Below the pieces are notes generated by a model. That model was not told the DNA's origin, ran no database searches, and worked only from the letters and a program-made list of their open reading frames with translations. The position numbers and the translations under genes are program-made. From positions 1 to 34,287 of the forward strand of contig AYNO01000021.1 of the NCBI GenBank assembly GCA_000500915.1: 34,287 bases of DNA. Direction: 5' to 3'. Positions 27,758 through 30,664 of this stretch are shown here, piece by piece (position 1 is the stretch's first letter; the number at the start of each line of letters is the position of its first letter). Source of the DNA: Rhodobacter sp. CACIA14H1 (GTDB taxonomy: Bacteria > Pseudomonadota > Alphaproteobacteria > Rhodobacterales > Rhodobacteraceae).

Positions 27758-28858
27758 TCACCCGATCCGCCCGCGCACGCCGCCCGTCTGGCCCCGATCC
27801 AGCAGCAGATGGTCCAGCAGGACACAGGCCATCATCGCCTCGCCCACCGGCACGGCACGGATTCCGACACAGGGGTCATGCCGCCCCTTGGTGATCAGAT
27901 CCAACTCCTCGCCCTTCACATTCACCGTCCGGCGCGGCGTCAGGATGGACGAAGTGGGCTTGACCGCAAAGCGGCAGACCACCGGCTGACCCGTTGATAT
28001 TCCACCCAGAATGCCGCCCGCATGGTTCGACAGGAACTCCGGCCCGTTGGCCCCCATGCGGATTTCGTCCGCATTCTCCACCCCGGTCAGCGCGGCGGAT
28101 GCCATGCCGTCCCCGATCTCCACAGCCTTCACCGCGTTGATCGACATCATCGCCGATGCCAGATCGCTATCCAGCTTCCCGTATAGCGGCGCCCCCAGCC
28201 CCGCAGGCACGCCCTCGGCCACAACCTCGATCACCGCACCGACCGAGTTGTGCGAAAGTCTTAATTCGTCCAGATAGTTGGCCCATTCCTCCGCCGCCAC
28301 CGGATCGGGGCACCAGAACGGATTCCGCTCCACCTCCGCCAGATCGACCCGGGTCCGGTCGATGCCCCTGACCCCCATCTGGACCATATATCCCGTGATC
28401 CGCAGCCCCGGCACCATCCGCGCCAGAACCGCCCGCGCCACGGCCCCCGCCGCCACCCGCGCCGCCGTCTCCCGCGCACTGGACCGCCCGCCGCCGCGAT
28501 AGTCCCTCACGCCATATTTCTGGTGATAGGTGATATCCGCGTGACCGGGCCGGAAAGCCTGCGCGATGTCCCCGTAATCCTTTGATCGCTGGTCGGTATT
28601 CTCGATCATCAACTGGATCGGCGTGCCCGTCGTCACCCCCTCGAACACGCCGGACAGGATGCGCACCTCGTCCGGTTCCTTGCGCTGGGTGGTGAACTTG
28701 TTCTGCCCGGGCTTCCGCTTGTCCATCCACGGCTGGATATCCGCCTCCGCCAGCGCCACACCCGGAGGCACCCCGTCCACCGTGCAACCCAGCGCCGGCC
28801 CATGGCTCTCGCCCCAGGTGGTGACGCGGAAGATATGGCCGAAGGTGTTGAAGGACAT
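27758..28858 (-). CDS. aroC: Chorismate synthase
   Basis: A 366-residue enzyme converting 5-enolpyruvylshikimate 3-phosphate to chorismate, the last common step of aromatic amino acid synthesis; it needs reduced FMN. All family signatures are visible: [16 protein letters not shown] near the start, [44 protein letters not shown] and AVKPTSSI. Length is normal. I chose ATG 28858 (MSFNTFG), preceded by GGAG, over an upstream in-frame start at 28990 that adds 44 unrelated residues. It stands alone on the minus strand. Upstream lie the heptanucleotide arrays. Confidence 0.97.
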
Positions 28859-28884
28859 CGCAAAGGCTCCCTGTTCCGGCACCG

Positions 28885-28913
28885 TCCATAGGCCAAAGCA
28901 GGGCAAGGCGCAA
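28885..28913 (-). promoter_or_regulatory. Candidate aroC promoter
   Basis: On the complement, TTGCGC (28908-28913) and TATGGA (28885-28890) are 17 nt apart, 27 nt before the aroC ATG. Spacing is ideal but the boxes are only partial matches. Confidence 0.35.
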
Positions 28914-28987
28914 AGGGGTTTGGAGGCGCCCACGTGCCAAGCCTCCCGCCCGACGAAGGGCTTGACCCGCCAGCCCCTCCGGGCAAC

Positions 28988-29215
28988 CACCGCTCACCGC
29001 TCACCGCTCACCGCTCACCGCTCACCGCTCACCGCTCACCGCTCACCGCTCACCGCTCACCGCTCACCGCTCACCGCTCACCGCTCACCGCTCACCGCTC
29101 ACCGCTCACCGCTCACCGCTCACCGCTCACCGCTCACCGCTCACCGCTCACCGCTCACCGCTCACCGCTCACCGCTCACCGCTCACCGCTCACCGCTCAC
29201 CGCTCACCGCTCACC
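28988..29215. repeat. Perfect heptanucleotide tandem array, CACCGCT x32
   Basis: From 28988 to 29211 the unit CACCGCT repeats exactly 32 times (224 nt) without a substitution, then breaks after a partial CACC (29212-29215). It begins about 130 nt upstream of the aroC start codon. Forward frames are all open and spell the same HRSPLTA heptapeptide because three units equal seven codons. Reverse frames meet TGA every 21 nt, so it is not part of aroC. Perfect identity over 32 copies indicates recent expansion or active homogenisation by slippage. Copy number may differ between isolates or be compressed in assembly. Confidence 0.97.
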
Positions 29216-29243
29216 TTTACACGTCAACGCTTGCGCCCAAGTC

Positions 29244-29334
29244 TTTCCTCTTTCCTCTTTCCTCTTTCCTCTTTCCTCTTTCCTCTTTCCTCTTTCCTCT
29301 TTCCTCTTTCCTCTTTCCTCTTTCCTCTTTCCTC
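29244..29334. repeat. Perfect heptanucleotide tandem array, TTTCCTC x13
   Basis: Thirteen exact copies of TTTCCTC (91 nt), beginning 28 nt after the first array ends. The tract is pure pyrimidine on this strand. It runs without a gap into the third array. The unit rotated as CTCTTTC differs from the third array's CTCACTC at two positions, so the two are probably derived from one another. Confidence 0.97.
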
Positions 29335-29369
29335 ACTCCTCACTCCTCACTCCTCACTCCTCACTCCTC
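29335..29369. repeat. Perfect heptanucleotide tandem array, ACTCCTC x5
   Basis: Five exact copies of ACTCCTC (35 nt), in the same 7-nt register as the preceding TTTCCTC array (their CTC positions are 91 nt apart, 13 units). Rotated as CTCACTC it is two changes from CTCTTTC and two from CTCACCG, the rotated first-array unit. It therefore lies between the other two in sequence. Confidence 0.96.
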
Positions 29370-29381
29370 ATCCTTCGCGCC

Positions 29382-29466
29382 ATTAACCCTAACGCCGTTA
29401 ACCTTAACCCCCCATTCGTCTCGGCCCCAAATACCCCACGGGGGTCCGGGGTGTTGAAACCCCCGG
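29382..29466. repeat. TTAACC direct repeat and G/C hairpin between the arrays and the thiamine operon
   Basis: 29382-29396 and 29397-29411 are adjacent 15-nt units agreeing at 12 of 15 positions, each starting with a TTAACC core. Downstream, CCGGGG (29446-29451) and CCCCGG (29461-29466) can pair around a 9-nt loop. Similar TTAACC runs and GGGGTCCGGGG blocks are, as I recall, frequent in intergenic Rhodobacteraceae DNA. No gene is visible between 28859 and 29674. Confidence 0.45.
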
Positions 29467-29498
29467 TCCGACGCCAGACCAAGCGCCCACGTCCCCCC

Positions 29499-29526
29499 TT
29501 GCACCCGCCACCCCAGCCCTTATGTT
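29499..29526 (+). promoter_or_regulatory. Candidate promoter of the thiBPQ operon
   Basis: TTGCAC (29499-29504) and TATGTT (29521-29526) are 16 nt apart. Transcription would start near 29533, at the first bases of the TPP riboswitch, a sensible position. The match to consensus is partial. Confidence 0.45.
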
Positions 29527-29529
29527 CCG

Positions 29530-29625
29530 CCTTACCTCGGGGTGCCCGCCGGACCTGGTCCGACTGGCTGAGATGCGAAAGCGGACCCGTTGAACCTGAA
29601 CCGGATCATACCGGCGGAGGGAAGG
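29530..29625 (+). promoter_or_regulatory. TPP riboswitch (THI element)
   Basis: The conserved THI-box parts appear in order: CTCGGGGTGCCC (29536-29547), GGCTGAGA (29576 region), ACCCGTTGAACCTGA (29585-29599) and a closing GGCGGAGGGAAGG (29613-29625). CCTTACCTC (29530-29538) pairs with GAGGGAAGG (29617-29625) as helix P1, with 8 of 9 positions matching. A local hairpin CCGGATCATACCGG sits in the 3' half. It precedes a thiamine ABC transporter operon, as in many proteobacteria. Thiamine pyrophosphate binding is expected to switch expression off. Confidence 0.96.
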
Positions 29626-29636
29626 TGCATGGAATT

Positions 29637-29669
29637 CCTCCATCTCCGACCACCCGTCGCATTTGGAGA
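29637..29669 (+). promoter_or_regulatory. Riboswitch expression platform that can sequester the thiB ribosome-binding site
   Basis: CCTCC (29637-29641) can pair with GGAGG in the 3' side of riboswitch helix P1 (29616-29620). Alternatively CTCCA (29638-29642) pairs with TGGAG (29664-29668), which is the thiB ribosome-binding site; TCTCC (29643-29647) with GGAGA (29665-29669) is a further option. No U-tract terminator is visible before thiB. A translation-level switch is the simplest reading (inference). Confidence 0.6.
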
Positions 29670-29674
29670 GAACC

Positions 29675-30664
29675 ATGAAGACTTCGATCCTTGCGCTGGG
29701 CCTTGCCACACTCGCCACCACCGCAGTGGCGCAGGACAAGCCCGTGCTGACCGTGCTGACCTATGACAGCTTCACCGCCGAATGGGGCCCCGGCCCCGCC
29801 GTCGAAAAGGCGTTCGAGGAAACCTGCGCCTGCGACCTGCAATTCGTCGCGGCCGGCGACGGCGCCGCGCTCCTGTCGCGCATCCAGATGGAAGGCGCGG
29901 GCTCCGACGCCGACATCGTCCTCGGCCTCGACACCAACCTTACTGCCGCCGCCGCCGCGACGGGACTCTTCGCCCCGCATGGCCAGACGTGGAAGAACAC
30001 CCTGCCCGTGGCCTATGACGACCCGACCTTCCTGCCCTTCGACTGGGGCTGGTTCGCCTTCGTCCATGACAAGGCGAAAACCCCCAACCCGCCGGCCTCC
30101 TTCGATGACCTCGCCGCCTCGGACCTGAAGATCATCATCCAGGACCCGCGGTCCTCCACCCCCGGCCTCGGCCTGCTGATGTGGGTCAAGGCCGCGCATG
30201 GCGACCGCGCCGCCGAGATCTGGAAGGGGCTGGCCGACAACATCGTCACCGTCACCCCCGGCTGGTCCGAAGCTTACGGCCTGTTCCTGGAGGGCGAGGC
30301 GGACATGGTCCTCTCCTACACCACCTCCCCCGCCTATCACCTGATCGCCGAGGAAGACCCGTCGAAAGCCGCCGCCCCCTTTGCCGAGGGTCACTACCTG
30401 CAGGTCGAAGTCGCAGGCAAACTCGCCGCGACCGACCAGCCCGCGCTGGCCGATGCCTTCCTCGCTTTCCTCGGCACCGATGCCTTCCAGTCCGTGATCC
30501 CCACGACCAACTGGATGTATCCCGCCGTCACCCCGGCGGCGGGCCTGCCCGCAGGGTTCGAAACCCTCATCCAGCCGGAGAAGTCGCTGCTCCTGTCGTC
30601 AACCGACGCACAGGCCGCCCGCGATGCGGCGCTGGCCGAATGGCAAGCCGCGCTCGCCCGCTGA
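29675..30664 (+). CDS. thiB: Thiamine ABC transporter substrate-binding protein
   Basis: A 329-residue periplasmic thiamine/TPP-binding protein. A signal peptide ends about AVA-QD (residue 19). The mature protein begins LTVLTYDSF, the ThiB start, and contains ADIVLGLDTNL, PFDWGWFAFVHD, DPRSSTPGLGLLMW and VTPGWSEAYGLFLEGEADMVLSYTTSPAYH, the classic ligand-binding stretches. Aromatic residues (Trp, Tyr) of these regions stack on the thiazole and pyrimidine. I chose ATG 29675 with GGAGAG just upstream, not the TTG at 29663. It follows a TPP riboswitch. It overlaps the permease start by 25 nt. Confidence 0.95.
   Translation: MKTSILALGLATLATTAVAQDKPVLTVLTYDSFTAEWGPGPAVEKAFEETCACDLQFVAAGDGAALLSRIQMEGAGSDADIVLGLDTNLTAAAAATGLFAPHGQTWKNTLPVAYDDPTFLPFDWGWFAFVHDKAKTPNPPASFDDLAASDLKIIIQDPRSSTPGLGLLMWVKAAHGDRAAEIWKGLADNIVTVTPGWSEAYGLFLEGEADMVLSYTTSPAYHLIAEEDPSKAAAPFAEGHYLQVEVAGKLAATDQPALADAFLAFLGTDAFQSVIPTTNWMYPAVTPAAGLPAGFETLIQPEKSLLLSSTDAQAARDAALAEWQAALAR

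Follow-up and report, generated by a model that had tools for sequence, protein, structure and literature searches.

Perfect heptanucleotide arrays in a divergent aroC-thi spacer of Rhodobacter, probably a hypervariable tandem-repeat locus

Results

The spacer and its three arrays

The window, by which we mean the whole stretch of 34,287 nucleotides of Rhodobacter sp. CACIA14H1 that was analysed, contains a spacer from which aroC runs leftwards, and a TPP riboswitch and the gene of an extracellular solute-binding protein run rightwards; the spacer is therefore divergent. Within it lie three tandem arrays of different seven-base units (Table 1).

Table 1. Features of the aroC-thi spacer and its flanks, in window coordinates
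Feature	Position	Strand	Basis or remark
aroC, chorismate synthase	27758..28858 (start codon 28856-28858)	-	Pfam Chorismate_synt
Candidate aroC core promoter (TTGCGC, 17, TATGGA)	28885..28913	-	Conservation
Array 1, CACCGCT (= CTCACCG) x32.6	28988..29215	+	100% perfect; TRF and exact-period script
Unique DNA separating arrays 1 and 2, 26 bases	29216..29241		Sequence
Array 2, TCTTTCC (= CTCTTTC) x13.3	29242..29334	+	100% perfect; TRF and exact-period script
Array 3, TCCTCAC (= CTCACTC) x5.9 exact	29330..29370	+	TRF and exact-period script
Two TTAACCYTAAC motifs adjoining the arrays	29383..29408	+	In 4/4 long spacers, 0/12 short ones
Candidate thi core promoter (TTGCAC, 16, TATGTT)	29499..29526	+	Conservation
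TPP riboswitch (RF00059)	29528..29639	+	RNA family match, 67.9 bits
Extracellular solute-binding protein gene, thiB-like	29675..30664	+	Name thiB-like inferred from the riboswitch

The initial annotation had described three perfect heptamer arrays at this place, the last two joined without a gap, and both TRF and the exact-period script bear it out: array 3 abuts array 2 in one common register, and TRF extends array 3 to position 29374 at 97%. The perfect period-7 runs measure 228, 93 and 41 bases; across 30 copies of the window generated by a first-order Markov model, the longest such run had 18. The window holds no further exact array of at least three copies (periods 5-12, at least 18 bases).

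The same annotation had pointed out that two of the rotated units each lie two changes from the third. A similarity at least as great arises in 26% of composition-preserving shuffles, and in 6% of random triples drawn with the composition of the window. We therefore reject the likeness of the units as a sign of shared origin, since it falls within the range of shuffles. When the six array strands were folded as DNA, by a program whose model leaves out quadruplexes and triplexes, a structure was obtained for the G-rich strand of array 1 alone (-19.8 kcal/mol, z -6.2), and each of the remaining five gave 0.

Two open reading frames (28934-29386 and 28623-29678, both on the plus strand) cross the arrays, since a heptamer free of stop codons leaves three frames open. 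The sister species described below carry differing units, and we treat protein coding by these frames as spurious.

On either side of the arrays stands a block that is conserved among the 16 same-genus loci aligned below and that, judged by conservation and by eye, we read as a candidate core promoter. The TTG and TAT columns of the candidate thi promoter, which lie outside the arrays, do not vary in any of the 16 aligned rows; the aroC block is conserved less. A promoter consensus scan of positions 28800-29700 called neither candidate and no terminator. All three arrays lie outside both candidate core promoters, with 74 bp between array edge and candidate -35 on the aroC side and 128 bp on the thi side. 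It is possible, as had been suggested, that changes in the arrays would alter the distance between the control regions of aroC and thi.

The same spacer in related species

A DNA search with the thi 5' region gave a match in 19 of the 19 genomes of the genus, our own included. The comparison of spacers comprises the 16 same-genus loci, own included, at which both spacer ends are present, with one genome per species. The loci dropped were L197 and L201, whose aroC end was not found, L204, where nothing but a short match to the riboswitch was obtained, and L205, the second match in genome G303; genomes G299, G296 and G301 have no representation among the 16 spacers.

In a tree built from parts of the flanking genes, our genome forms one clade with G104, G300 and G302 (support 100/99), next to G295. 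The members of this clade differ from the other species in the length of the spacer, which measures 465-1179 bp from aroC start to riboswitch in the four, as compared with 112-308 bp elsewhere. They also differ from one another in what the spacer contains. G300 carries CTCACCC in 29.3 copies, an array that is internally perfect; G104 carries 11.8 copies of an 8-bp unit; and G302 has no array, its 1179-bp spacer (52% GC) holding extra DNA of low GC content. None of the remaining 12 compared spacers contains an array.

These observations bear on two further points of the initial annotation. One is the outcome by which it would have been refuted, units and period being random among close relatives: the unit is not kept, whereas two of the three species with an array share period 7. 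The other is the idea that three units, or 21 bp, would set a bound protein on one face of the helix. This idea is not supported, since the array that G104 carries in this spacer has an 8-bp unit, so that three units span 24 bp, and G302 has none. The G300 array closes with a CTCACCG unit, which hints at a shared seed but at no more than that. The tree of the flanking genes would allow a single origin of the 7-bp arrays.

The long spacers carry marks of their own, namely a hairpin-like block and the TTAACCYTAA motif, found in all four clade members and in 0 of the 12 others. The hairpin-like block (CCACGGGGGTCCGGGG..., window 29430-29470), common to the four long spacers, has one or two partial matches per 400-kb sample and is perhaps a dispersed intergenic element. 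The sequence TTAACCYTAACG (window 29383-29408) is dispersed in 15 of the 19 genus genomes, with 1-26 copies (0-2 for a reversed-pattern control), and forms runs with a spacing of about 118-136 bp in G305 (C1:2666621-2667104) and G298 (C1:1041310-1041834); it is palindrome-like and a candidate binding site. The long low-GC spacer of G302 contains a 160-aa open reading frame (L188:2749-3231) with no Pfam match. In G303 (contig C52), two adjacent riboswitch/solute-binding-protein matches, L203 and L205, lie about 1.3 kb apart, perhaps through tandem duplication.

Turnover of the arrays

Alignment of the right flank of our spacer with that of G300 gives 22 mismatches and 6 gap openings in 159 columns. 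At the rate of the flank, simple arithmetic leads us to expect about 16 substitutions in 228 bases on our own branch, and the observed number is 0. Since the flank has diverged while the arrays are internally perfect and have unlike units, the present copies are younger than the split between our species and G300. The recent expansion or homogenisation proposed in the initial annotation is thereby supported. The arrays have been re-amplified faster than bases change, and the unit and even the period turn over faster than point mutation.

Rarity elsewhere in these genomes

We sampled stretches away from the spacer in our own genome (400 kb), G104 (800 kb) and G300 (400 kb), which together make 1.6 Mb and represent between about one tenth and one fifth of each genome. 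These samples contain no exact array of at least four copies with a period of 5-12; at three copies they contain three hexamer arrays, and no period-7 array of three copies or more. A search of our whole genome for (CTCWYYS)x3 returned this locus only. Among the 19 genus genomes, (CTCACCS)x4 occurs in our own and in G300 only, in each case at the aroC-thi spacer. The spacer thus looks like a local hot spot, which could be owed to mutation, to selection or to inheritance of a single ancestral array.

Neither the unit nor the period is special

Arrays of CTCACCG are present in at least 120 stretches from many phyla. Within the family, 3 of 295 genomes carry them, namely our own and members of two further genera, in which the loci are unrelated to ours; CTCWYTC x4 occurs in our own genome only among the 295. 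In order to judge how far such matches depend on the particular unit, we compared CTCACCG x4 with five other orders of its letters in 398 Pseudomonadota genomes, own included. CTCACCG was found in 1 of the 397 other genomes and the five permuted units in 2, 0, 1, 0 and 3 of them, making 7 of 2382 unit-by-genome trials, or about 0.3%. Since permuted units are about as frequent, transfer need not be invoked for a long list of matches when the collection comprises 84,980 species, and we have dropped the idea of a pan-bacterial mobile heptamer despite the many CTCACCG stretches.

Some genomes use one unit repeatedly: CTCACCG recurs at several places in genomes of Rudaea and Dokdonella. In Methylomicrobium sp. 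wino1, GAAAGGT occurs in 21.6 copies near the CTCACCG array of L108, and in 4.9 copies in L275 and L281. Of the 120 stretches listed, which were picked for carrying a heptamer, 28 have a second heptamer unit no more than 500 bp away from the searched array; the corresponding numbers are 3 for units of period 6 and 5 for those of period 8. Thus neighbouring arrays of unlike units, as found here, are common where heptamers occur.

Among the matches listed in these heptamer-chosen stretches, 202 arrays have period 7, and periods 5, 6, 8 and 9 account for 2, 9, 8 and 6. This dominance is absent from stretches that were not chosen for an array: at three copies or more, 400 kb of wino1 holds two arrays of period 7, and 400 kb of Dokdonella BIN16 holds one of period 7 and three of period 6. 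We therefore make no claim that period 7 is special in itself. Heptamers are reported to be over-represented in many bacterial genomes (PMC4692102), which is not seen in the unchosen stretches of our genome, G104, G300, wino1 or BIN16.

The gene context of 131 CTCACCG arrays from the 120 stretches listed was assigned with a crude home-made gene caller: 37 lie between tandem genes, 18 between convergent and 10 between divergent ones, 11 within an open reading frame and 8 across a gene end, 32 at the end of a stretch, and 15 are unclear, so that 47 of 131 remain unclassed. With 10 of 131 divergent and 47 unclassed, these arrays show no preference for divergent spacers.

Discussion

We consider it likely that the spacer is a hypervariable simple-sequence-repeat locus of the VNTR type, lying in non-coding divergent DNA, driven by slippage and mostly neutral. 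The units are short, perfect and head to tail, and the array differs at the same place between species. The spacer would have been lengthened in the ancestor of the four-species clade; short direct repeats in it would then have been multiplied repeatedly by slipped-strand mispairing (or unequal recombination), one unit variant filling the array until another took its place. Being situated upstream of the riboswitch and of both candidate core promoters, the arrays would be tolerated, and changes of copy number would probably be mostly neutral for aroC and thi, with mild tuning at most. Slippage and neutrality, like the promoter positions, are parts of this reading that we infer. Tandem repeats of Xanthomonas are reported to change by slippage, mostly in single-unit steps (PMC4045669); against the reading counts the report of Rehm et al. 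that the stability of G-rich heptamer loci in Xanthomonas exceeded that of controls (PMC4692102). That three of the four clade members carry an array at one place is more than can be expected from random birth, and calls for mutation bias, shared descent or selection in addition. Altogether the locus looks like a known kind of fast-changing DNA rather than a conserved machine.

The STRR of heterocystous cyanobacteria are heptamer arrays dispersed over the genome, and this dispersal is taken as their defining feature. Our arrays resemble them in having more than one heptamer unit in tandem, but differ in belonging to another phylum and in lacking such dispersal: the genome-wide CTCWYYS search and the 400-kb exact-array sample show no array away from this locus in our genome. 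The initial annotation had named such heptamers as known from these cyanobacteria, and they are, but they are not peculiar to them, as the many phyla with CTCACCG and other reported cases show. The paper on Xanthomonas and Nostoc describes heptamer arrays in both and mentions those of Calothrix (PMC4692102); heptamers are also reported for Beggiatoaceae (PMC4679880) and Haemophilus (PMC2651432). In the open-access literature we found no paper on heptamer arrays in the group to which our genome belongs, the only one retrieved being that on Beggiatoaceae.

The short tandem arrays of Xanthomonas VNTR or MLVA loci are similar, with units of up to 7 bp in one scheme, but variation within species is documented for them, whereas here the differences are seen between species only (PMC4045669). 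The GGGNATC-type heptamers of Xanthomonas and Nostoc also form arrays, mostly intergenic. They are quadruplex-forming, occupy many loci per genome, prefer four units and are under-represented between divergent genes (PMC4692102), unlike our arrays of 6-33 copies at one locus in a divergent spacer. The runs of three or more G that mark that family are lacking in our units, which have GG only on the G-rich strand, and in our whole genome units of our type occur at this locus only, with 0 arrays in the 400-kb sample. The corresponding strand has GGGG in the G300 unit and GGG in that of G104, which could form quadruplexes. The TAACTGA direct repeats of Beggiatoaceae share with ours their heptamer period and intergenic position, but comprise 169 sets of 2-6 copies of one unit, mostly just upstream of start codons (PMC4679880).

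The nearest precedent in behaviour comes from Haemophilus influenzae, where hmw1A and hmw2A, which encode surface adhesins, have perfect 7-bp arrays of 13-38 copies upstream, and 8- or 9-bp units in other strains, so that unit and period turn over as they do here; for these repeats, a position inside the promoter and an effect of their number on expression are reported (PMC2651432). This precedent favours another explanation, in which selection or a site-directed process would re-create arrays of any unit in the spacer, their length resetting the expression of thi (thiamine uptake), aroC (shikimate pathway) or both. So does the contrast between an array in three of four clade members and none of at least four copies in the 1.6 Mb sampled. 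We nevertheless regard it as unlikely. Our arrays differ from those of hmw1A and hmw2A in standing beside housekeeping genes and in keeping clear of the candidate core promoters, at a distance of at least 74 bp from either candidate -35 box; G302 and 12 of 12 other spacers manage without an array; and the aroC and thi genes have no surface or antigen function. The same source describes an octanucleotide, ATTATTTG, between the divergent cmkB and pdxS genes of H. influenzae (PMC2651432), like ours in its divergent spacer with a vitamin gene adjoining, but unlike ours in having only 1-6 copies and lying 12 bp upstream of the gene. Were the selective explanation true, the unit and period would be free, since only length or stiffness between two divergent promoters would count, and Rhodobacterales would have here a contingency locus of the hmw kind that serves housekeeping genes.

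It is still less probable, indeed very improbable, that the copy number or part of an array is an artefact of assembly. Our copy number is taken from a draft of 236 contigs (88% completeness), a perfect repeat of 228 bp is longer than many short reads, and the 32.6 copies of array 1 exceed every one of the 131 CTCACCG arrays among the matches listed (maximum 24.6). However, the arrays are internal to a contig, their flanks agree with those of relatives, and the same place holds arrays in other assemblies too (G300, and G104, whose assembly has 3 contigs), so that the existence of the arrays is hardly in doubt, and only the copy number is. Least credible of all is a heptamer that is sequence-specific and either spreads among bacteria or serves as the binding site of a conserved protein: its occurrence in many phyla and at unrelated loci of two other family genera, and the reuse of one unit in some genomes, are countered by the absence of any excess over permuted units in 397 genomes and by the other units at the same place in sister species. 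The permutation control may serve as a warning against taking a repeat unit shared by distant phyla for transfer.

If the locus is, as we think likely, a VNTR-type one, the point of interest becomes why one divergent spacer is a recurrent site in this clade. The four sister species form a natural series, in which one spacer holds three different arrays and, in one species, none, with conserved candidate promoter blocks and a riboswitch alongside. Such a series makes it possible to test directly whether housekeeping genes are tuned by arrays in divergent spacers or whether these arrays are neutral.
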